DNA of 64,000 nt, from contig JAGDVP010000018.1 of assembly GCA_023255735.1 (NCBI GenBank), positions 1 to 64,000 on the forward strand, given 5' to 3'. Made by a program: the position numbers and the translations under genes. This stretch comes from Halothiobacillus sp. (lineage in GTDB: Bacteria; Pseudomonadota; Gammaproteobacteria; Halothiobacillales; Halothiobacillaceae). How positions within the stretch are numbered: the first letter of the stretch is position 1; each line of letters begins with the position of its first letter. Of the stretch, positions 19,780 to 30,152 are shown piece by piece. The notes below the pieces were generated by a model. That model worked only from the letters and a program-made list of their open reading frames with translations, was not told the origin of the DNA and did not search any database.

Positions 19780-21189
19780 CTAAGGCCGATTGCGCGCCAC
19801 ACGCCTGCCGCCCACATCCTGGCTAAAAAACACCAAAGGCAGCCAACGCACCAATTCGGCCTGCGTGGTGTGCCAATCTAAAGCGTGATTGGCGGGCGGG
19901 GCGGCAGCGAAGCAGGCGGCATCCAGCGAGTGCAACGCAGCCATAAAGCAAGGATTAGGCGCGCGCGCCATCATGCCTTGAGTTGTGGCCTCGCCGGTCA
20001 GCGCCCGCAGCACGTCTAACGCGGCTTGCGGGCTTGGGCATTGCGCCAAGCGCCGTTGGGCGGCACTGTGGCGCCGCCGCTGGGCAACCCGCCGAGACCC
20101 ATCGCGCAAGGCAAAGCCCAGAGCATAAAGCGCAACCAGCGCAAGCGCCAAGCGCCACCCCCAAAATGCTGCTGCCTGCAGCAGTTGCGCGCGCGCAGTG
20201 GGTTGCCAGTTGAGCGTTTGGGTGGGCAGCTTAGCGGCAGACAGCGCCGCGCCCGGCTCTTCCTCGTGGCTGTTGATATAAGGCAAGCGCAAGGCGGGCA
20301 GCTCGCCTGAGGTGGCATTTTGACTTTCGGGGGCGGGTAACAACGGGATGCGGATATCAAAAGTTTGTGCCAGCGGGTCATCGGCGGGAACAGGGTCGTT
20401 CGGTGATAAGCGAACCTCTGCTGCGCCAAGCGCCAACGCCTCGCTGCCAATGAGTTGCTCATCGAGCATCTCGGCCAGCGCGTGTTCGGTTAGCCCGCGG
20501 CCGGTGACGCGCAGCTGCCAATCAACCGGCTCGCCGGCATAAAGCGGCGGCAAGGGCATTTGAACCAAGCGCAAAGGGGGTGTCACAGGGATAGATTCCG
20601 GCCAAAAGGCGGGGAGCGGGCGCACGCTGAGGCTGCGCGCCACGGGAATAAAAGCGTCATTGCTGGTAGGCTCGCCCACCATTTGAAACGTCATTTCGGC
20701 AAATTCTAACGGGATGATGCCCCCTGAGAGCGCGGTAACCGCAAAGCGATACACCCGCACATTCGCCAGGCGACCATCCACCGTCTCCAACCCTTGGCTG
20801 ATGCTAATGCGGCGGGTCGTGATGCGCGCACCAAACGGGCGATGCAAGGTAAGTGAGGCGATATTTTTCGTGCGATCAATCACCGTTAAGGTCACTAAAA
20901 AAGGCGCGCGTTGCAGCAACCCCTGCGGCGGCACGGTGATTTCGGTGCGCACGCTCACCCCTTGGGGCAGCTGGCCTGCGCCATCGGTGCTATCCAGCGC
21001 CGTTGTGGGCGCCAGCGGATGCACGGGAGCAAATGGTTGCGGCGTACCGAAAGATGTGGTACCCACCGTTTGCGGCTGGTTTTGCGGCGTGGGAATATCA
21101 AAAGCCCACGCGGTGCCGAGCGCCCCCCCGAGCGCAACGCCGAGCCCGCACAAAAGCCTCAGCCAGAACCACAACGGGGGCGCGCGCAT
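19780..21189 (-). CDS. batD: BatD-like protein (oxygen tolerance family)
   Basis: A 469-residue envelope protein. An N-terminal hydrophobic segment (residues 8-30) acts as signal or anchor, large beta-sandwich repeats typical of BatD follow, and one membrane helix near residue 330 precedes a short cytoplasmic tail. BatD proteins accompany MoxR ATPases and VWA membrane proteins and are thought to help assembly or stability of envelope complexes. Its start shares one base with the batB stop (TGATG). It ends the long minus-strand operon, next to the terminator at 19745. Confidence 0.82.
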   Translation of the reverse strand: MRAPPLWFWLRLLCGLGVALGGALGTAWAFDIPTPQNQPQTVGTTSFGTPQPFAPVHPLAPTTALDSTDGAGQLPQGVSVRTEITVPPQGLLQRAPFLVTLTVIDRTKNIASLTLHRPFGARITTRRISISQGLETVDGRLANVRVYRFAVTALSGGIIPLEFAEMTFQMVGEPTSNDAFIPVARSLSVRPLPAFWPESIPVTPPLRLVQMPLPPLYAGEPVDWQLRVTGRGLTEHALAEMLDEQLIGSEALALGAAEVRLSPNDPVPADDPLAQTFDIRIPLLPAPESQNATSGELPALRLPYINSHEEEPGAALSAAKLPTQTLNWQPTARAQLLQAAAFWGWRLALALVALYALGFALRDGSRRVAQRRRHSAAQRRLAQCPSPQAALDVLRALTGEATTQGMMARAPNPCFMAALHSLDAACFAAAPPANHALDWHTTQAELVRWLPLVFFSQDVGGRRVARNRP

Positions 21190-23120
21190 CAGGGTTGCCT
21201 CGAGCGAGATGCAGCCGCAGGCGCCTCGGGCGCTAAAGCGGGGACATGGTAGGGCTGTTGGCGCAATAGGCCATCGAGCAGGGGCGCGGGCTGATCGTGA
21301 ATCAGGTTGAGTTTAGCCCGGGCGCTGGTGGCATTCGCCTCGTTGAGCTCAAAAGTTGTGGCGTTGGGCGGGGGACTGATCGCCGCACGGCCGGCTGCAC
21401 CGCCAAGCACACCTTGCGTTTTTTGAATTTCTTGATCCATTTTGCTGTGCGCGGGGTCAACAGAATAGCCATATTGCGCGATTTGAAGCCCTTGAAACTT
21501 GGGGCTGTCTTGGCTGTTTTTCGCTGCAGTTTGCAGAATTTTTTGCACGATATCGCGATTCACAAGCGCGGCATCGGCCAGAACCGTATCGACCTGAGCC
21601 GCATGAGCCTGAGCAATACCAGGAAGGCTTGAAGGCGCCGCTGCCAGGCCAAGCACATAGTTAAACGCCGCCAACGCATCGGGGTATCGCCCCGTAAGCA
21701 CCAGCGCATCGCCTAAATTAAACGCCGCCAGCGCCTGATCTTGTGGGGTGGTGGCAAGCCAGAGTGCCGTTTGCAGTTGGTTCACCGCAAACACGAAATC
21801 TGCCCGCCGCAAGGCGGCCACCCCGGCGCCCAAGCGCGCAGCAAACCCCTTGGCCGCACCAAAAGCCACCTGCGCCTCGGCGTAATCGCCTTGTTTAAGC
21901 GCCGCATTGCCGGCGGTGATTTGGGCTTGCACACCCCTTTGATTAAGCCAAGCGGCTGAGTCACCGGCCCATGCGGGCGCAGGCAGCACAGAGGCCACCA
22001 TTGATACGGCCAGCACCATCATCAGCACGGCGGGCACTGAGGTGATGCGGGGCGGCAGAGTTGCCACCAACACCCCAATCGCCGCAAGCCAGGTCAACAA
22101 CAAGGGCAAGGCATGCAATGAGCGAGTTTGGCCACCTAGGGCGAACTTGGGGGCTAAGTTGGGCAGGGCGGCGACGGCTTCCCGCACGAAATGCTCATCG
22201 CTCGGCACGGTGCCTGTGATACCCGCGGCGCCCCCAGTGATTTTTGCCAGTTCAGCGACGCGGGCGGGGGCGGGTGTGCTGGTGATGAAGGTGCCTTCAG
22301 CGGTTTTCATGGGCAGACCATCTTGAAGCAAGGGGCCGCCCTGCTGAGCTTGGGTGAGCGCAATGAGCCGAATATGGGCTTGATTTAAGGCCTCGGCACC
22401 GGCCAGCTGCTGGCTGCCAAGCGCACCCGCAAAACTTTGCGCATCGCCACTGGTAAGCCATATAACCGCCCCGCCCTGCATCTCGGGCATTTGGGCGATC
22501 CAGTTAAAGGCGGTGCTAGGGCGGGGGATTGCCAGCGGATGGGGCAATGCCGCAATTTGTTTAAGATAAAAAGGCAGCAACTGAGGGTCGGCGGCAGGCG
22601 GCAACAGCAAGCCGGCCTCATCGGCATAAACCATTAACCCCAGACGGCGATCGGGGAAGTTTTGGGCAAGCAACCCCACTAAAGTTACCGCGCGTGCCAG
22701 CCGATTAGGCGAAACATCGGCCACGCTCATGGCGGCAGAATCATCGATCAAAAACATGAGCGGCGGGCGGGTTTGCAGTGCTTCATCGGCGGCTTTGGGC
22801 ACGCGCGGATCGGCCAAACTCAAACCCAAACCCAGCCAAAACACCCAAGATAACCCCCACACGACGCGACGGCGTGTTTGATGCGCCTTTGAGGAGGCAA
22901 AGACCAGCGCCCAAGGTTGCAGCGGCGTATCGGCATAATGGCGCAGCGTTTGACGCCGCCGCCACTGCGCGATGAGCAACAGCAAGGGCAGCACCCAAAG
23001 CGCTAAAAAGGCCGGTTGCGCCAATTGCGGCCACACCCAGCCGCCACGAACAGATTGCGCCACCCACACCAGCACATCATGCATCCCCAGCGCTGTCGCA
23101 AAATCAGCGGGCAGGCTCAT
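21189..23120 (-). CDS. batB: BatB-like VWA protein fused to TPR (BatC) domain
   Basis: A 643-residue protein with an N-terminal pair of membrane helices, a periplasmic von Willebrand A domain (about residues 90-290), a further membrane helix near 335-370 and a TPR region (about 395-515) of the kind found in BatC. A Gln/Pro-rich tail ends it. The metal-ion-dependent adhesion motif reads DDSAAMS where DxSxS is expected, so the second serine is replaced by alanine. Batlike VWA proteins work with the MoxR ATPase. Start and stop overlap neighbours by 4 nt and 1 nt. Confidence 0.82.
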   Translation of the reverse strand: MSLPADFATALGMHDVLVWVAQSVRGGWVWPQLAQPAFLALWVLPLLLLIAQWRRRQTLRHYADTPLQPWALVFASSKAHQTRRRVVWGLSWVFWLGLGLSLADPRVPKAADEALQTRPPLMFLIDDSAAMSVADVSPNRLARAVTLVGLLAQNFPDRRLGLMVYADEAGLLLPPAADPQLLPFYLKQIAALPHPLAIPRPSTAFNWIAQMPEMQGGAVIWLTSGDAQSFAGALGSQQLAGAEALNQAHIRLIALTQAQQGGPLLQDGLPMKTAEGTFITSTPAPARVAELAKITGGAAGITGTVPSDEHFVREAVAALPNLAPKFALGGQTRSLHALPLLLTWLAAIGVLVATLPPRITSVPAVLMMVLAVSMVASVLPAPAWAGDSAAWLNQRGVQAQITAGNAALKQGDYAEAQVAFGAAKGFAARLGAGVAALRRADFVFAVNQLQTALWLATTPQDQALAAFNLGDALVLTGRYPDALAAFNYVLGLAAAPSSLPGIAQAHAAQVDTVLADAALVNRDIVQKILQTAAKNSQDSPKFQGLQIAQYGYSVDPAHSKMDQEIQKTQGVLGGAAGRAAISPPPNATTFELNEANATSARAKLNLIHDQPAPLLDGLLRQQPYHVPALAPEAPAAASRSRQP

Positions 23121-24088
23121 GCGCGCCCTCCTTGGTCACGAATCAAAAGCCCCTGCGCGGCCAAAAGCAATGCGGCGGTCAGCAAGAGCAAGCCTGCGTA
23201 TAAAGGCCACTGTTGGCGTTCGGTGGGACGCGCGGATATCGGGGTTTCGCTCGCGGCAATTTGGTTGGCAACCGCATTCATGGCCGCCAAATCGCCCGCC
23301 AGAATGGGCTTGCCGCCGGTGAGATCGGCCAATTGAGCCAGGCTTGGCTGGCCATCATCCGGGGTGCTGCCAACAGGCGCGAGATTCACGGTATAAATGT
23401 GAATATCGTGCGCGTGCGCCAATGCCAAGGCTTCCGCCGGTGTCATCAGGCCGCCGGTGCTAAAGCCATCGGTCCACACCACCAAAAGCGGCGCGGGCTG
23501 CCCAGCTTGGCTTGTGGCGGCAATGTGGGAAATCGCGACGGCCAAGCCATCGCCAAGCGCCGTGTCGGAGCCATTAATGCCGGCGGTGAGTTGCCGGACC
23601 CAATAGGTGATGACCGCATGATCGGCCGTCATGGGCACAAGCGTACCGGCTGAGCCTGTGACCACCACCACCGAAAATCGATCGTGCGGACGCGCGGCAA
23701 TAAAACGCAGCAACCCTTGGCGCATCGCCGCCATACGGGAGATAAACTGGCCGTTTTCGGTGGGAAAATCCTCGGCTTGCATACTGGGGCTGGCATCCAC
23801 TACGAGCAAAATCGAACGCGCGGGCGGGGGCGCGGGGATAAAATCGCCCTGCCATGTGGGGTCGGTTAGCGTCAAAACCAGGGCAGCATAGGCCGCAAGC
23901 CAAAGCCCGGGCACCCAACGCGCCGCGCGTGAGGGCCTTAAGGGTGCATCAAGGCCAGTTATGAGGGGATGGCGCAGCATGATCGACGCCGCGCGCGCCG
24001 AAACCAATCGGCGCAAAGGCGCCCATAACCACGGCAACGGTATCAGCGCCAAAAGCCACAACGGGGCGGCAAGCGACAGGGCGCTCAT
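23117..24088 (-). CDS. batA: BatA-like VWA membrane protein
   Basis: A 323-residue protein with two N-terminal membrane helices (LWLLALIPLPWLW; YAALVLTLTD), a VWA domain with canonical DxSxS (LVVDASPSMQAED) and a C-terminal membrane helix followed by a short basic tail. I chose the ATG at 24088, which shares a base with the upstream stop (TGATG); the longer frame has no family sequence. It should work with the BatB protein and the MoxR chaperone as part of a membrane VWA-AAA+ system. Confidence 0.82.
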   Translation of the reverse strand: MSALSLAAPLWLLALIPLPWLWAPLRRLVSARAASIMLRHPLITGLDAPLRPSRAARWVPGLWLAAYAALVLTLTDPTWQGDFIPAPPPARSILLVVDASPSMQAEDFPTENGQFISRMAAMRQGLLRFIAARPHDRFSVVVVTGSAGTLVPMTADHAVITYWVRQLTAGINGSDTALGDGLAVAISHIAATSQAGQPAPLLVVWTDGFSTGGLMTPAEALALAHAHDIHIYTVNLAPVGSTPDDGQPSLAQLADLTGGKPILAGDLAAMNAVANQIAASETPISARPTERQQWPLYAGLLLLTAALLLAAQGLLIRDQGGRA

Positions 24089-24603
24089 CACGCGCGCACC
24101 GCGTTCGGCGCAATCGCGGCACGCGGCACACACCGCGATTGCCGCGCCATGTGGGATAGCAGCGCTTGCCAGGTCTCTGGCGGGGCGGGCAGGCCAAAGC
24201 GCAGGCGATCGAGCTTCGCGATTAAATCTTGCCACGGTGGGGGTAATCTCGCTCGGTCCACCGCAGGCTGCATCGCAAAATAACGCGCCAGCGCCCACAT
24301 GAGCGCAGGCCCCACTGATTGCGGCACGGCCTCGGGCGCCCGACGGATGAGTTTTGATAACCTTTTAAGTTGAAACCGCAGCACCCGCCCTCGCCAATCG
24401 CGCGCCAGCCAGAGCCCTATGATGATGAGCATCCCCGCCATCAGCCCCGCCAAAATTAAGGCGATGCTGTGCTGCTGCCACAGCGAACCTATGGCCACCT
24501 GCATCTGTTCGGCTGGGGTTGTGGGCGGTGCAATCCAAATATCCACCAAGCCCTTGGGCACTAAATCTGGCAGGCTGCCAGGCGGGTGAATCAGCGGCCT
24601 CAT
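24088..24603 (-). CDS. DUF4381 family membrane protein
   Basis: A 171-residue protein with one central membrane helix (about 45-65) and a helical cytoplasmic C-terminal half with RLPPPWQDLIAKLDRLRFG. It fits DUF4381, which is nearly always found between DUF58 and BatA genes of MoxR operons. The function is unknown. The ATG at 24603 overlaps the DUF58 stop by 4 nt (ATGA) and its own stop shares a base with batA. Confidence 0.75.
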   Translation of the reverse strand: MRPLIHPPGSLPDLVPKGLVDIWIAPPTTPAEQMQVAIGSLWQQHSIALILAGLMAGMLIIIGLWLARDWRGRVLRFQLKRLSKLIRRAPEAVPQSVGPALMWALARYFAMQPAVDRARLPPPWQDLIAKLDRLRFGLPAPPETWQALLSHMARQSRCVPRAAIAPNAVRA

Positions 24604-25586
24604 GGCGATGGCTCCGTGCCGCCATAACGAAGCTGAGTGGCGCATTGCGTGAAAAGCGCCTGCACGCTGGTGGGGGTTGAAACCGCGCTCACGCGCCCGC
24701 CCACCACCATGGCCAAATCACGCACGGCGTCGAGCCGCTGTGCAAAGCGGGCAGCCAGTTCCGCCCGCAGAGCCGATTGATGCGTATCGAGCCGCACGGG
24801 GTGCGAAGGCGGCGAGGCTGCAAAGGTAACGGTACCGAGATCGGGGAGCTCGACCTCCGCCGGATCAAACAGCGTAAAAAACCAAAGCTGGTGGCGTTCG
24901 GCCAGTGGCAGCCAGCCTTGCAAGTGAGGGTCGGCGGCAAAATCGGCCTGAAAATCCCCCAGCACGATAATCAGCTGCCCGGCAGGCAAACTATGCGCTA
25001 AACGCTGGCGAAAACCCGCCCAATCAATCGCGTGCAGGGCGGCGGGCTGATCTAGCCACGCGGCCAGTTCATGCAGGGTATTGAGCAAGCGCGCGCGACT
25101 GGTGCTGGGGTGGCGCGGGCTTTGGTCGCTAAGCCCGGGGGTGTGCAAACCTACCGCTAAATTTTGGTGCAAGGCTGCCGCCGTGAGCAAATGCGCCAAC
25201 GTTAAGGCTTGCGTGATTTTGAGCTGGTAGCGCGTGCCAAAAAACATCGACTCGCTGGTATCGAGCACAATATGACACTGGCGCTGCGCCGGTTCGCGGA
25301 AAATGCGCACCATAGGCTCGGTCGTGCGCGCTGAAATACGCCAATCGATGAGTGAGGCCGGCTCGCCCGGCTGATAGGCGCGCAAGAGCTCAAAGTCCAT
25401 CCCTTGCCCCAGCCGAGCCGCACGCTGATCGCCCGGCAAAAGCACCGATACCGGCGGGTTCTCGGTGGTTAAATCGGGCAGCTCGGCGCCCAATTGCCAA
25501 GCTTCAGAGGTCGCTTGCGCAGTGGGCGCCACACTGGCCTTAGGCGACACGGGGCGGGTTTTAGCAGAAAAAAATGCGCGAAACAC
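24600..25586 (-). CDS. DUF58 domain (VWA-like) protein
   Basis: A 328-residue cytoplasmic protein. The DUF58 signature is in the middle: LRAYQPGEPASLIDWRISART, then IVLDTSESMFFGTRYQLKI, which keeps the DxSxS metal motif. The arginine-rich start and the P/A-rich N-terminal 30 residues are outside the domain. DUF58 proteins are encoded with MoxR ATPases and are thought to act as their adaptors. It lies 2 nt after moxR and overlaps DUF4381 by 4 nt. Confidence 0.85.
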   Translation of the reverse strand: MFRAFFSAKTRPVSPKASVAPTAQATSEAWQLGAELPDLTTENPPVSVLLPGDQRAARLGQGMDFELLRAYQPGEPASLIDWRISARTTEPMVRIFREPAQRQCHIVLDTSESMFFGTRYQLKITQALTLAHLLTAAALHQNLAVGLHTPGLSDQSPRHPSTSRARLLNTLHELAAWLDQPAALHAIDWAGFRQRLAHSLPAGQLIIVLGDFQADFAADPHLQGWLPLAERHQLWFFTLFDPAEVELPDLGTVTFAASPPSHPVRLDTHQSALRAELAARFAQRLDAVRDLAMVVGGRVSAVSTPTSVQALFTQCATQLRYGGTEPSP

Positions 25587-25588
25587 GA

Positions 25589-26563
25589 TTAAGGCAGCGC
25601 AATTTCAGTACACAAGCGATTAATCAACTGATCGCGATTGAGCCCCGATACCAGCGCTTTGGGGCTTAATATCAGGCGATGGCGCAGCACATCGGGCGCG
25701 AGGGTGAGTAAATCATCCGGCACAATAAAGTCGCGACCATTGAGCCAAGCATAAGCTTGCGCCGATTGCACCCACGCCTGCGCCCCGCGCGGCGAGGCAC
25801 CCACCAGCACCATGCCGGCGAGCGATTCGAGCCCCAAAGCGGCCTTTTCAGGCGCGCGGGTGGCGGCCACCACATCCACCACCCAGCGCTGCAAGGCGGG
25901 GTCACAATGCACGGCTTTAACCGCATCCCGCGCCGCCAGCACTTCATCAACGGTAATCCCCGTGCCGCCCGCAGCCGGTGCGCCGAGCGTGCCCGCCAGC
26001 GTGCGCGCCAAAATAGCGTACTCATCTTGGCGCTCAGGATAGGTGAGCGCCACATGCAGCATAAAGCGATCTAACTGCGCTTCGGGCAAGGGATACGTGC
26101 CGGATTGCTCCAGCGGATTTTGTGTTGCCATCACTAAAAATAACGCGGGCAATTGGCGGGTCTCCCCCGCGACCGTCACCTGCCGCTCGGCCATGGCTTC
26201 AAGCAAGGCCGATTGCACTTTGGCCGGCGCGCGGTTAATTTCATCGGCCAAAATTATCTCGTTGAATAACGGTCCCGGCGCAAACGAAAACGTGCGCGTT
26301 TCGGGGTGATAAACCTCATTGCCCAGTAAATCGGCGGGCAACAAGTCGGGGGTAAATTGCACCCGCTTAAAGCGCGCATGCACCCCATCAGCCAACGCTT
26401 TAACCGCCGTGGTTTTCGCCAACCCCGGCAAGCCCTCAACCAGTAAGTGCCCGCCGGTGAGCAACCCAATAAGCAAACGATCAACTAAATCACGCTGCCC
26501 CACAATGTACTGGGCTAAATGGGCGCGCAGGGCGTGCATCGCGGTGGGTTCGGTCATAGTCAT
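25589..26563 (-). CDS. moxR: MoxR family AAA+ ATPase
   Basis: A 324-residue AAA+ protein. Walker A is GLPGLAKTT (about residue 40), Walker B is ILADEINRAPAKVQ, and the sensor region follows with ATQNPLEQSGTYPLPEAQ, the MoxR signature. These ATPases act as chaperones that insert metal cofactors or mature VWA-containing complexes. I use the ATG at 26563 because it overlaps the ArsR-rhodanese stop by 4 nt (ATGA); an ATG at 26557 is the alternative. The gene is second in a tight minus-strand operon after the sulfur-sensing regulator. Confidence 0.93.
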   Translation of the reverse strand: MTMTEPTAMHALRAHLAQYIVGQRDLVDRLLIGLLTGGHLLVEGLPGLAKTTAVKALADGVHARFKRVQFTPDLLPADLLGNEVYHPETRTFSFAPGPLFNEIILADEINRAPAKVQSALLEAMAERQVTVAGETRQLPALFLVMATQNPLEQSGTYPLPEAQLDRFMLHVALTYPERQDEYAILARTLAGTLGAPAAGGTGITVDEVLAARDAVKAVHCDPALQRWVVDVVAATRAPEKAALGLESLAGMVLVGASPRGAQAWVQSAQAYAWLNGRDFIVPDDLLTLAPDVLRHRLILSPKALVSGLNRDQLINRLCTEIALP

Positions 26564-27228
26564 ACCTGTTGATTTTGTTCGTATTCGACGGGGTGCCCCG
26601 CCTGTTTCCACTCAGGAAAGCCTGATTCTAACCGATGGGCGGTAAACCCCTGCGCGCGCAGTGCCGCGACCGCCTCAAATGAAAAGGTGCAATACGGCCC
26701 ACGGCAATAGGCGATCACTTCTCGCCCGGCATCCAATCGGGCAATTTGTTCGTGCAAATGCGCTGGGCTGATATTCACCGCGCCAGGCACATGGCCTGCG
26801 GCATATTCCTCCGGCGGGCGCACATCTAAAATGGTCACCAAGCCCGATTGCGCACGCGCCAGTAATTCATCAACCGAAACCGGCGCCAAGCTATCGCGCG
26901 CGGTTAAGTGCAAAGACACCATCTCGCGCACTTCAGCCAAATGGCGCTCGGCCAGGCCATGCAGCACGGCCATCAGGGTAATTACCTCATCATCGGCCAG
27001 CGCATAAAAAATCTGTTTGCCTTGACGCTCGGCACACACCAAGCCCGCTTGTTGCATTTTTTGCAGATGCTGCGAGGTATTGGCTATCGACAGCCCACTC
27101 ACCGAAGCCAAAGCATCAACCGAGCGTGCACCTTGCGCCAAATAATCGAGTAATTCAAGCCGCCGTCCGCTGCCCAGCACCTTGCCCATCCGCGCGAATT
27201 GATCGTTTAAATCTTGCTTGAAGGCCAT
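26560..27228 (-). CDS. ArsR-type regulator fused to rhodanese domain
   Basis: A 222-residue fusion. Residues 10-90 are an ArsR winged helix-turn-helix (SVDALASVSGLSIANTSQHL; KMQQAGLVCAERQGKQIFY). Residues 115-215 are a rhodanese domain with the catalytic loop CRGPYC (Cys175, Cys180). Such proteins can bind persulfide sulfur on the rhodanese cysteine and change DNA binding. Cys65 in the winged-helix part is a possible second thiol. It is translationally coupled to moxR by ATGA. A perfect inverted repeat at 27275-27296, 47 nt upstream, is a likely autoregulatory operator. Confidence 0.9.
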   Translation of the reverse strand: MAFKQDLNDQFARMGKVLGSGRRLELLDYLAQGARSVDALASVSGLSIANTSQHLQKMQQAGLVCAERQGKQIFYALADDEVITLMAVLHGLAERHLAEVREMVSLHLTARDSLAPVSVDELLARAQSGLVTILDVRPPEEYAAGHVPGAVNISPAHLHEQIARLDAGREVIAYCRGPYCTFSFEAVAALRAQGFTAHRLESGFPEWKQAGHPVEYEQNQQV

Positions 27229-27274
27229 GGTGTCTCGTGTAATGTGTCGAAGGGCTTAGATAACTTATTGTCAT

Positions 27275-27296
27275 CATTCAATCACATCGTTGAATG
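27275..27296. promoter_or_regulatory. Candidate ArsR operator, site 1
   Basis: CATTCAA at 27275-27281 and TTGAATG at 27290-27296 are perfect inverted repeats with an 8-nt spacer. The site lies just before the start of the ArsR-rhodanese gene (27228, minus) and after the stop of the MBL-YeeE gene. The same arms and spacing recur at 28814. Confidence 0.65.
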
Positions 27297-27321
27297 ACTG
27301 GTCAAGCAATTCGATACCGTT

Positions 27322-28656
27322 TCAATGCGGTACACGCAAAGCGACTGGGGGCGTATTAATGCGTCGTAATAATGGAATACGGGTAGCCCCCTGCGGGCAC
27401 AGTCGCGGGCGACAACGGCGCGAGCCCACCACCGAGCCGATTAATACCGCGCCGAGCCAGCCCACCCGGTTTTTGCGCAGCGGCAACCAGCGCCAAGCCG
27501 CGAACAGCAAGCCTGCGGCAATTACCACTGCCATGATGCGATAGGTGAGCGTGCCGCCACCAAGGATGCTCGCCAAATCCTGATGGGCAATGCCCCAATG
27601 CGTTAAGTTCACACTCAGCATTCCCACCCACGGCGCGAACGCCACGGAGAACAACTCCGTGCGCGTCATCGCATACGCACTCAAAGCCATCACGATTACC
27701 GCCACCAACGCCTGCATATTGCCTTGGGTAAATTTAACGAGGCTACGCACCGGACAACCCCGCGCCAGCACCATACCGACCCCAAAAATCAGCCCGCCTA
27801 AAATATATTGCCCCCAAGCAAAATCGGGTGTGCGGTAGGGTGTTTTGGTTTGATTCAAATCCACAGAGGTCCATGCCTGCACCGCGAGGGTGGCCAAAAT
27901 TGCGACCCCAATCGCCCCAAGATAGACGGCAAAACGGCGGCCATCGCGCACGATTATCTGCATTTCCTCAACTTCAGGCAGCACGGTATCGCACACTTGG
28001 GCGACAAAATCTTCGCGCTTGCCGATCAAACTGCGATTAAATTTTTTCTCAAAACCGATGGTCGAGCACGGCTTGCCGCTGATGCCGCCGCCGCACACAC
28101 TGCCTACCTGAGCGCCGGGTAAAATTTCCAGATAATCCGGCTGGCTCAAAATACGGCCAAAGATTGAATCATGGAGTTTTCCGGCCATCTCGGTGGCGCG
28201 GCCATGCAAATCGAGCCGCCCCACACCACCTACAAACAGCGTGTGGCCGGTCAACATAAACCACGGCGCATCGCCACGGGAGTGATCTGTCACCGCTAAA
28301 CAAAGGCTGTCGTCGGTGTGTCCCGGCGTGTGGATAACCTGCGCTGCGACATTCCCCACCCGCAAAATCTGACCATCGCCCAAAGGCAAAAATTCAAACG
28401 GCAAACCTTGATTGCATTCATGTAAACCATATTCACCGCCCGCCAATTGAGCCAAACGCCGCCCGCCGGACACATGATCGGCATGAATATGGGTGTCAAT
28501 CACATAGCGAATGCGCACCCCGCGCGCCTCGGCCATTGTTATAAACGCAGCCTCATCCCCTGCATGCACATCCACTGCGATGGCCAATCCAAGGCCTGCA
28601 CAACCAAACAGATAGGCCAATGAAGATTTGGCACAAGCCACTTGCTCAAGAAACAT
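27322..28656 (-). CDS. Persulfide dioxygenase-like MBL fused to YeeE/YedE domain
   Basis: A 444-residue fusion. Residues 1 to about 230 are a metallo-beta-lactamase domain with THIHADH (55-61) and HTPGH (His113), the segment LTGHTLFVGGVGRLDL, and LEILPGAQVGSVCG with SGKP, as in sulfur dioxygenase relatives. Residues about 245-405 are membrane helices with GMVLARGCPVRSLVKF, the Cys signature of YeeE/YedE sulfur transporters. The usual bridging aspartate is His138 here. The YeeE part is about half the usual length and its last 35 residues are arginine-rich, not hydrophobic. GGGGAGAG precedes the ATG. I infer persulfide oxidation coupled to sulfur movement across the membrane. Confidence 0.82.
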   Translation of the reverse strand: MFLEQVACAKSSLAYLFGCAGLGLAIAVDVHAGDEAAFITMAEARGVRIRYVIDTHIHADHVSGGRRLAQLAGGEYGLHECNQGLPFEFLPLGDGQILRVGNVAAQVIHTPGHTDDSLCLAVTDHSRGDAPWFMLTGHTLFVGGVGRLDLHGRATEMAGKLHDSIFGRILSQPDYLEILPGAQVGSVCGGGISGKPCSTIGFEKKFNRSLIGKREDFVAQVCDTVLPEVEEMQIIVRDGRRFAVYLGAIGVAILATLAVQAWTSVDLNQTKTPYRTPDFAWGQYILGGLIFGVGMVLARGCPVRSLVKFTQGNMQALVAVIVMALSAYAMTRTELFSVAFAPWVGMLSVNLTHWGIAHQDLASILGGGTLTYRIMAVVIAAGLLFAAWRWLPLRKNRVGWLGAVLIGSVVGSRRCRPRLCPQGATRIPLLRRINTPPVALRVPH

Positions 28657-28813
28657 GATTCGCTCTCCCCTAATTCGACCCCAAATAAATCAAAACGGAA
28701 AATCAACGCCAAACACCACCCCAAAACAGCATCCCAGAGCACAGAAATAACCCCCCGCAAACACAGCGTTAAAGCATCGTCTGAAACTCGGGCATTGCAC
28801 CGCAATGTGCAAA

Positions 28814-28841
28814 CATTCAATCGTTTAATTTAATGTATAGT
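28814..28841. promoter_or_regulatory. Candidate ArsR operator, site 2, next to a -10 box
   Basis: CATTCAA at 28814-28820 and TTTAATG at 28829-28835, 8 nt apart, form the same inverted repeat as site 1 with a single mismatch. TATAGT at 28836-28841 immediately follows and could be the -10 box for the MFS gene, so bound protein would cover the promoter. The divergent MBL-YeeE gene (start 28656) shares this upstream region. Confidence 0.6.
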
Positions 28842-28887
28842 CAAGTGCCAGCATACTCTTTTCGTCCTATTTTTTTGGAGCTGGCGC

Positions 28888-30152
28888 ATGAGCACATCCG
28901 GTTTGAATCCCGTGCACGGCATTCGTGCGAATTGGCCGCAATTTATGCTGCATTTAATTCAGGTATTTTTTGTCGGTGCCACCGTCGGTATGACGCGCAC
29001 GGTGCTGCCCGTGCTGGCGCAAACCGATTTCGGCTTGGCTGCGCATTCCTTTCTCGCCCTCAGTACGTTTGTGATTGTATTTGGCTTGGTGAAATCCATG
29101 CTGAACTTGGTGGCGGGCGGCTTGAGTGATCGTTTCGGGCGCAAACGAATACTCATAGCCGGTTGGTTAGCCGCTCTACCCATCCCATTTTTGATTTTGC
29201 TGGGGCAAAGCTGGGGCTGGATTATTCTGGCCACGATGTTTTTGGGCGTGAATCAAGGCTTGGCGTGGTCGATGGCGCTCAATAGCAAGCTGGATTTAAC
29301 CCGCTCCGATCAACGCGGCTTGGTCAACGGTCTAAACGAATTTGCAGGCTATGGAGGCGTGGCGCTGGCGGGCGTGTTCGCCGCATTTCTAGCGCACTGG
29401 ATCGGCGCGCGCATGGGGCTGTTTTGGTTTTCTCTGGCCGTCATTAGTGTGGCACTCACACTCGGGCTCTGGGTTGTTCGAGAAACACGGCCATGGGCAT
29501 TAGCGCATCTTTCACAGGCGCCAGAGGCCGCAAAAAATCCAAACCGCGAACCCTACGCGCTATTTTTTGGCAGGCCAGCATCCAGCACCCGGGCTTACTC
29601 GCGTTGAATCAGGCGGGTCTTGTCGAAAAATTTACCGATTCGATTGTGTGGCTGTTTTTTCCGATCTTCTTTTTGGCGCATGGATTAAGCTTGGCGGCAG
29701 CCGGATCTTTAATCGCCATTTATGGCGTAACCTGGGGTGCGGGGCAACTCATTACCGGGCCATTATCCGACAAAATTGGCCGAAAACCCTTGATTGTCGA
29801 GGGTATGTGGCTGTGCGGTGCGGGGGTTTTGGCGGTGCATTTCACCGATTCGGTGGTGGTGTGGAGTATCGAACTGGCACTCATAGGCTTTAGTATGGCG
29901 ATGCTCTACCCCACACTGGGCGCGGCGGTGGCAGATTTAACTGTGCCCAGCGAGCGCGCCTCGGTGCTGGGCGTGTACCGCTTTTGGCGTGATTTGGGTT
30001 ATGCCGTCGGCGGCTTGCTCTTGGGGTTAGCCGCGCAAATGAGTGGCCACCTAAGCCTGCCGTTTTGGCTCGTGGCGATCGCCATGTTTTTATCCGGGGT
30101 GTATTTGTGGCTTAAATTAACGCCACAACAGGTCTTAACTCCTAACACCTGA
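28888..30152 (+). pseudogene. MFS transporter interrupted by a -1 frameshift
   Basis: The first frame (28888-29607) encodes six to seven MFS helices with GGLSDRFGRKRILIAGW. The second (usable from about 29532) carries the C-terminal half with GPLSDKIGRKPLIVEGM. The frames join at 29532-29538, an A AAA AAT heptamer. One extra A would restore a 421-residue protein reading on into the C-terminal half. So this is a point indel in a six-A run, a sequencing error, or programmed -1 frameshifting on a canonical slippery site. The substrate is unknown. It is divergent from the MBL-YeeE gene and under a shared candidate operator. Confidence 0.85.

Follow-up and report, generated by a model that had tools for sequence, protein, structure and literature searches.

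Two inverted repeats of the same design were located in a 64,000-nucleotide stretch of the Halothiobacillus sp. contig JAGDVP010000018.1 (positions 1 to 64,000 of the forward strand, assembly GCA_023255735.1; hereafter the window). Comparison with relatives makes it likely that both are operators of the adjacent ArsR-rhodanese protein (ArsR-Rhd), which would act as an autorepressor of its own and neighbouring detoxification genes and be relieved by sulfane sulfur. Predicted operator 1 (27275–27296, no strand assigned; CATTCAATCACATCGTTGAATG) is a perfect 7-8-7 inverted repeat, CATTCAA-N8-TTGAATG, in the promoter of arsR-rhd. It is situated 46 bp from the arsR-rhd ATG (gene at 26560–27228, minus strand), inside the gap of 93 bp that separates the arsR-rhd start from the end of a 444-aa open reading frame (ORF) of the metallo-β-lactamase (MBL)-YeeE type. 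Predicted operator 2 (28814–28835, no strand assigned; CATTCAATCGTTTAATTTAATG) reads CATTCAA-N8-TTTAATG, with 6/7 arm pairs, and is located in the divergent promoter region of 231 bp between the MBL-YeeE ORF (27322–28656, minus strand) and a major facilitator superfamily (MFS) gene starting at 28888 on the plus strand. An earlier note on this DNA had reported two repeats of identical arm length and spacing at 27275 and 28814, one before arsR-rhodanese and the other between MBL-YeeE and the MFS gene; both were found at exactly these positions.

The window contained 128 7-8-7 repeats with at least 6/7 pairs, 10 of which were perfect, and three pairs among these 128, operators 1 and 2 included, matched at 13 of 14 arm letters. 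Since 27 of 30 simulated 64-kb sequences held an equally alike pair, the pair statistics of the window alone were dropped as proof, which was therefore sought in the comparison with relatives. With at most one mismatch, CATTCAA-N8-TTGAATG occurred in the 2.06-Mb genome at operators 1 and 2 only, and CATTCAA-N8-TTKAATG at these two and a third place (31264) within a histidine-kinase gene. The 12-base core ATTCAA-N8-TTGAAT was found at eight places with at most one mismatch; the six other than the operators overlapped ORFs, one of them (L116) at the extreme 5′ end of an ORF. With two mismatches allowed, the core matched 141 places compared with 58 for the reversed control, and only the strict form is therefore informative. 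The genome-wide search, which the earlier note had proposed as a check, thus found that the strict motif is not common at unrelated genes in this genome.

Both sites had counterparts in relatives (loci and genomes are designated by L and G numbers): operator 1 in L004, L005 and L006, and operator 2 as CATTCAATCATTTAATTGAATG in L142 and CATTCAATCATTTAATTGAATA in L143. A broader set comprised 95 distinct upstream regions of ArsR-Rhd homologues, 150–200 bp long, with L001–L003, repeated upstream regions and those shorter than 150 bp left out. At least 10 of the 12 core letters were present in 84/95 regions and all 12 in 49/95; the reversed pattern reached 10/12 in 0/95, and shuffled sequences did so about once per 95. 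Most of these proteins shared 53–62% identity with the window protein, whose closest named relatives among the matches listed were from Halothiobacillus metagenome-assembled genomes (94% identity). The site preceded ArsR-Rhd genes in records labelled Gammaproteobacteria, Betaproteobacteria and Magnetococcales. Outside the Halothiobacillaceae, the arm positions were 86–100% conserved and the flanking positions mostly <60%, with two just beyond the site reaching 77 and 71%. In most loci the site started approximately 50–66 bp before the matched protein start, and in some 110–234 bp. Among 85 aligned sites, the outer pair was T/A (TATTCAA...TTGAATA) in 46/70 sites of proteins with ≤62.5% identity and C/G in 13/15 sites of closer proteins. 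This paired change of the outer letters on both sides is as expected for a dimer site, although it amounts to a single contrast between lineages. Of five paralogues with approximately 40% identity, three were preceded by a 7-8-7 palindrome of other letters approximately 36–47 bp upstream: L107 (CACTCTA-N8-TAGAGTG) and L171, the paralogue of G004 (CATTCCA-N8-TGGAATG), had perfect 7/7 palindromes and L108 (TACTCCA-N8-TGGAGTG) had 6/7 pairs. Shuffles of the paralogue upstream regions gave 7/7 in 16/2000 and at least 6/7 in 331/2000.

The motif also tracked the regulator within a set of 27 genomes taken as Halothiobacillaceae, 21 of which encoded an ArsR-Rhd orthologue at the threshold of ≥63% identity. 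The strict motif was present in 19 of these 21 genomes (18/20 excluding the window's own) vs 0/6 of those without ArsR-Rhd (Fisher p 9.5e-5, without a phylogenetic correction and with the window genome as the source of the motif); three of the six genomes lacking ArsR-Rhd were only 64–81% complete. The 27 genomes, with that of the window counted, held 35 strict places, of which 25 were at ArsR-Rhd, persulfide dioxygenase (PDO), YeeE or MoxR loci. A PDO-like MBL gene was encoded by 14 of the 27 genomes, and an operator with at least 11/12 core letters preceded it in all 13 for which the upstream region was available (the contig of G003 ends there). L009–L012, from records named Halothiobacillus sp. 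or Guyparkeria, had an additional site ahead of yeeE-arsR-rhd. The view of the earlier note that a single dimer, in the simplest case that of the ArsR-rhodanese protein, uses both repeats as operators hence gains strong comparative support from the upstream conservation (84/95), the co-occurrence (19/21 vs 0/6) and the recurrence of the same target operons, and its proposal of a sulfur regulon agrees with the recurrence of the site at PDO-like, YeeE and MoxR operons.

Putative promoters were closely interwoven with the operators. The predicted sigma70-type promoter of arsR-rhd (27276–27305, minus strand) consists of TTGACC (27300–27305), an 18-bp spacer and TTGAAT (27276–27281), the latter being an operator arm. 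Likewise, the predicted promoter of the PDO-YeeE ORF (28815–28844, minus strand) consists of TTGACT (28839–28844), 18 bp and the operator arm TTGAAT (28815–28820). The other arm of operator 2, TTTAAT (28829–28834), would serve the predicted MFS promoter (28829–28857, plus strand), followed after 17 bp by CATACT (28852–28857). CTTGAC was retained upstream of arsR-rhd in L004, L005 and L006. In all 13 PDO upstream regions, window included, TTGAC ended 3–4 bases before the operator, giving the layout TTGACN-(17 or 18)-TTGAAT, with the operator arm in the presumed position of the −10 hexamer. For the divergent MFS genes, the window and L142–L146 had the other arm in the presumed −35 position (TTGAAT in L142–L145, TTGATT in L146, TTTAAT in the window), with CATACT 17 bp on; L147 had TAGGAT in place of CATACT. 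Because operator arms are shared by both promoters, one bound dimer would block both divergent promoters. The TATAGT that the earlier note saw beside the second repeat is indeed located there (28836–28841), but was rejected as a promoter element. The same place reads TTTAGTCAAG in L142 and TAAAGTCAAG in L143, and TATAGT itself, the letters of which overlap TTGACTATA on its far strand, is not conserved in that form. Conserved instead is GTCAAG (CTTGAC, the minus-strand −35), and the likely −10 of the MFS gene is CATACT.

The proposed repressor is a 222-aa protein with an ArsR-type winged helix and a rhodanese domain (Pfam HTH_5 at residues 22–64, rhodanese at residues 118–209). The ArsR half scored 29.9 with PF01022 HTH_5 (cut-off 22) and 67.7 with NF033788 (cut-off 55), and the rhodanese half 64.9 with PF00581 (cut-off 22.2). 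In an alignment of 66 proteins (the window's and those of 65 of the 80 homologue loci, the best 80 of 387 matches), the only invariant cysteines were C175 and C180 (66/66). They frame the loop CRGPHC in 43 proteins, CRGPYC in 16, CRGAYC in 4, CRGAWC in 2 and CRGRYC in 1; we take the CRGPxC loop to be the rhodanese catalytic loop. Residues 1–110 contained no cysteine in 48/66 proteins and one in 18/66, while 41/66 had exactly two cysteines, C175 and C180, in the whole aligned protein. The window's C65 was shared by 1/66, and the neighbouring C66 was found in 12/66. If ArsR-Rhd senses via thiols, the rhodanese loop is thus the conserved candidate. An AlphaFold2 model of the protein (pLDDT 90.3, pTM 0.84) matched ArsR and rhodanese structures separately, and no structure named as an ArsR-rhodanese fusion was among the matches listed (best 60 of 77 by sequence; 50 by structure). 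The sulfurtransferase 1yt8 matched residues 48–215.

The comparison revealed the site conservation, the co-occurrence of site and regulator, the promoter geometry, the recurrence of targets and the invariant cysteine pair. As to DNA binding, to a repressing instead of an activating role, to the function of the promoters and to inducer and allosteric path, we infer the following. A dimer of ArsR-Rhd would bind ATTCAA-N8-TTGAAT within promoters and block RNA polymerase, the operator filling the −35/−10 spacer and supplying the −10, or, at the MFS promoter, the −35. This would repress arsR-rhd itself together with the MoxR/DUF58/vWA operon that follows it, and also the PDO-like/YeeE gene(s) and the gene of the MFS transporter. 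Rising sulfane sulfur (persulfide, polysulfide) would be taken up by C175-R-G-P-Y-C180, the loop of the rhodanese half, probably in the form of a persulfide or of a C175-Sn-C180 bridge; the ArsR half would then leave the DNA and the detoxification genes would be expressed. SqrR is reported to form a tetrasulfide between two cysteines (PMC9995734), which by analogy suggests a Cys-Sn-Cys bridge in ArsR-Rhd.

Several observations count against an ArsR-Rhd autorepressor of this kind. A good site was absent from 11/95 ArsR-Rhd upstream regions, and in G006, G004 and L009–L012 the operator was found before the PDO/YeeE part with none directly before arsR-rhd. Two of the five paralogues (L072 and L078) had no convincing palindrome upstream. 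Of the 35 strict places, 10 were elsewhere, and inspection of four of these (L156, L157, L158 and L160) gave no assignment; the reversed control gave 3. Operator 2 of the window deviates from the consensus at one arm base, whereas L142 and L143 keep the consensus. A consensus promoter scan of 26500–29000, which demands A as the second letter of the −10 hexamer, returned no promoter, with shuffles giving 2.0, and TTGAAT agrees with TATAAT at only 4/6 positions. The commonest neighbour outside the family was of the fatty-acid-hydroxylase type (60/78 loci), and neither MFS nor MoxR is evidently a sulfur gene. Finally, the PDO-like MBL, a putative enzyme, has His in place of the Asp of 3tp9 and 3r2u in the aligned GD-x-x-FVG motif, an Asp that is presumably a metal ligand.

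The sites could be ArsR-Rhd operators with an inducer other than sulfane sulfur, such as arsenate, chromate, metals or oxidants, or the rhodanese domain could have a catalytic role; we consider this unlikely, yet a serious alternative. The rhodanese part weakly matched the ChrE model (41.3 bits vs a cut-off of 120), and the fatty-acid-hydroxylase, MFS and MoxR neighbours just mentioned have no evident link to sulfur. Against it stand the many sulfur-handling neighbours in and beyond the family (PDO-like, YeeE, VTT-rhodanese, DsrE and TSUP) and the lack of a conserved cysteine in the ArsR domain, which makes metal coordination by a thiol site in that domain unlikely.

It appears improbable that the sites serve as boxes for an activator or have an architectural role, with ArsR-Rhd activating transcription instead of repressing it. 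HlyU of the ArsR family has been described as an activator (PMC10509353), and many loci outside the family have a TATAAT-like box upstream of the site, in a layout unlike that of the family. In all 13 PDO upstream regions, however, the operator fills the presumed −35/−10 spacer and reaches the −10, which is a blocking position.

Binding by another regulator is marginally less probable still; the candidates are a MerR protein, the gene of which is close by in relatives, and a BigR/SqrR-like ArsR protein from elsewhere in the genome. A MerR gene separates the two sites in L142/L006, and in L159/L004 and in L005 it is located between YeeE and site 1. It was found neither in the window nor in any further family locus with a site that was searched, and MerR was rejected as the binder. 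A BigR-like ArsR protein is encoded on the same contig (C22:85933–86262; 75.4 bits to the BigR model, cut-off 155), and the letters ATTC and GAAT recur in published SqrR sites (PMC9774250). The SqrR site is ATTC-N8-GAAT, though, whereas 12 bases separate ATTC and GAAT here; the other three PF01022 places of the genome, the remaining ArsR-type genes, had no match of at least 12/14 within 3–7 kb around each; and the site tracks the presence and position of ArsR-Rhd. That two AT-rich palindromes in promoter DNA resemble each other by chance can practically be set aside: 27/30 simulated windows did contain some 7-8-7 pair matching at 13/14, but other species keep both sites and 84/95 upstream regions keep the motif, which already contradicts this reading.

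The favoured ArsR-Rhd repressor resembles the persulfide-responsive ArsR repressors BigR, SqrR and YgaV in that an ArsR-type regulator is linked to PDO, YeeE or rhodanese genes and has a palindrome at its own promoter. Among the PDB matches listed, the ArsR half was closest to fragment 1–100 of Mb0332 from Mycobacterium bovis (2kko/3gw2), with E 4e-20 in the sequence comparison (2kko) and, in the structure comparison (3gw2), TMt 0.90 at 43% identity. Mb0332 presumably corresponds to Rv0324 of M. tuberculosis, which carries a C-terminal rhodanese. Rv0324 has been discussed for drug tolerance, and the available part of that source names no operator or persulfide chemistry (PMC9480834). The BigR operon of Acinetobacter is yeeE-yedE-pdo2, and A. 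baumannii BigR is reported to have a conserved cysteine pair, C34/C100, in its ArsR domain (PMC7315123). Unlike BigR and SqrR, ArsR-Rhd has no dithiol in the ArsR domain, its conserved cysteines being in the fused rhodanese loop, and its site is ATTC-N12-GAAT as opposed to their reported ATTC-N8-GAAT (PMC9774250). With 40.7 bits to the BigR NCBIfam equivalog, it also remained below the cut-off of 155. ArsR-Rhd would work like BigR/SqrR but, judged by score, dithiol and half-site spacing, is not a member of that group. The sHdrR and SoxR proteins of Hyphomicrobium denitrificans are likewise ArsR-type and are reported as sulfane-sulfur-responsive repressors of sulfur oxidation, and related regulators are said to act on YeeE-family transporter genes too; unlike ArsR-Rhd, SoxR has 124 aa and two conserved cysteines that are bridged, and the accessible text names no rhodanese fusion (PMC10451225, PMC12423496). 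TsoR (NF045707, ArsR/SmtB-type) was the second-best NCBIfam model, with 51.3 bits over ArsR-Rhd residues 9–99, which is below its cut-off of 115; the TsoR model differs in being a stand-alone one of 99 positions. The same NCBIfam match list included the TsoB model, a rhodanese/DsbD fusion-like protein. No publication on an ArsR-rhodanese operator was found among the titles and abstract openings listed in the literature searches, the scope of which excluded subscription papers and preprints.

Directly downstream of arsR-rhd, the window encodes a MoxR AAA ATPase, a DUF58 protein, a protein of 185 aa that matched no Pfam family, and two vWA proteins (21189–26611, minus strand), and the MoxR/DUF58/vWA genes are a probable co-transcribed target of ArsR-Rhd. 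A MoxR orthologue (≥60% identity) was encoded by 22/27 family genomes, namely all 21 with ArsR-Rhd and G017. In 18 genomes it adjoined or was near arsR-rhd, whereas three had it unlinked or on a different contig. The unlinked MoxR operons of G006 and G010 had sites of their own (CATTCAATAAACCACTAGAATG and CATTCAACCAAACGCTTGAATG, with 13 and 14 of 14 letters, respectively), pointing to a sulfur control of the MoxR/vWA chaperone system. In the third unlinked case, G004, the MoxR operon followed the 40%-identical ArsR-Rhd paralogue with CATTCCA-N8-TGGAATG. The MoxR locus of G017, which is without ArsR-Rhd, had no match above 10/12. The loci with MoxR/DUF58 operons away from arsR-rhd and with an operator of their own were L155 (3013) and L148 (1594; with vWA genes too).

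Outside the family, the site was usually located between arsR-rhd and a divergent gene of the fatty-acid-hydroxylase family, followed by a VTT-rhodanese gene. Over 78 loci (8 from whole genomes, query source loci included), the neighbours comprised fatty-acid-hydroxylase (60), VTT-rhodanese (50), DsrE (24), TSUP (8), MoxR (5) and PDO (2) genes; the sulfur genes among the neighbours were PDO-like MBL, YeeE, VTT-rhodanese, DsrE and TSUP. In L014–L083 the fatty-acid-hydroxylase gene and the VTT (TVP38-like)-rhodanese fusion were the commonest divergent neighbours, up to approximately 2 kb from arsR-rhd. The one-mismatch sites of L160 (2988) and L157 (2985) had in their vicinity an MBL gene with 34% to the query and a homologue of YeeE with 35%; these are possible further members of the regulon.

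The PDO-like MBL protein of L142 (7450–8181) aligned to 3tp9, 3r2u and ETHE1 (4chl) and kept HxHxDH and HTPGH. In L142 and L159 the gene order was PDO, yeeE, MerR (opposite strand), a cation-efflux gene and arsR-rhd. In the window, the 444-aa ORF combines the persulfide-dioxygenase-like MBL (27946–28656), a YeeE remnant (approximately 27424–27945; roughly residues 34–215 of 371) and an unrelated tail. The ORF covers positions 13–155 of the 310 in the Sulf_transp profile and thus not the full domain, compared with 2–310 for the L142 gene. At the joint between PDO end and YeeE start, window positions 27945–27949 match both L142 7129 and L142 7470, and the C-terminal part of YeeE, the MerR gene and the efflux gene of L142/L159 are missing from the window. 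The frame of the window genome (455 aa) was the only such long one among the 14 genomes with PDO, the others having 250–291 aa (G006 with one internal stop). On this alignment, the fusion arose by deletion from a PDO-like gene and a YeeE gene that had been separate. The MBL-YeeE gene of the earlier note therefore exists as an ORF beside the sites but is not an ancestral gene, since relatives carry the two separately. A second joint is located at approximately 27310–27422, where approximately 113 bp had no match in the three relatives compared; the stretch 27297–27425 is single-copy in its own genome, and 27273–27309 matches L159. A reading of the PDO-YeeE ORF as a pseudogene was not adopted, as the dN/dS ratio of the window PDO (0.13–0.19 vs 0.11–0.16 among three relatives) indicated no clear relaxation. 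In place of GRPDL, as read in the three relatives compared, the window PDO copy (27946–28656) has GRLDL.

The MFS transporter (28888–30152, plus strand) is likewise altered: it is split into two overlapping ORFs, 28888–29607 and 29493–30152, which are out of frame with each other, while the two halves share one frame in L142 and L143. The MFS gene noted earlier beside the second site is hence present, but its frame is not intact in this assembly. The fused PDO-YeeE, the missing genes and the MFS frameshift may be real losses or assembly errors. Between L142 and L159, the synonymous divergence (dS) of PDO and yeeE was approximately 0.07, compared with approximately 1.5 for arsR-rhd and 1.8 for moxR (>20-fold); the PDO-yeeE cassette has thus probably been exchanged between species, and the low value suggests that this was recent.

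Known persulfide-sensing regulators are described as belonging to three families (ArsR, CsoR and Fis type), all with dithiol chemistry (PMC10509353). Given a mostly cysteine-free DNA-binding domain (48/66) and a conserved pair only in the sulfurtransferase loop, in ArsR-Rhd the enzyme loop would be the switch. Tentatively, and with somewhat less confidence than an even chance would warrant, ArsR-Rhd may represent a further class of sulfane-sulfur sensors with a rhodanese-loop switch and a mostly thiol-free DNA-binding domain. Its regulon in three proteobacterial groups would comprise persulfide oxidation, sulfur transport and VTT-rhodanese proteins and, in the window's family, the MoxR/vWA chaperone operon. 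The divergent palindromes of L107, L108 and L171 are a natural set for decoding the specificity of the recognition helix. The predicted operator is precise enough for target prediction in sulfur oxidisers, including tube-worm endosymbiont genomes (L064, L065, L067, L071, L077 and L081), and places the MoxR/vWA operon under likely sulfur control.

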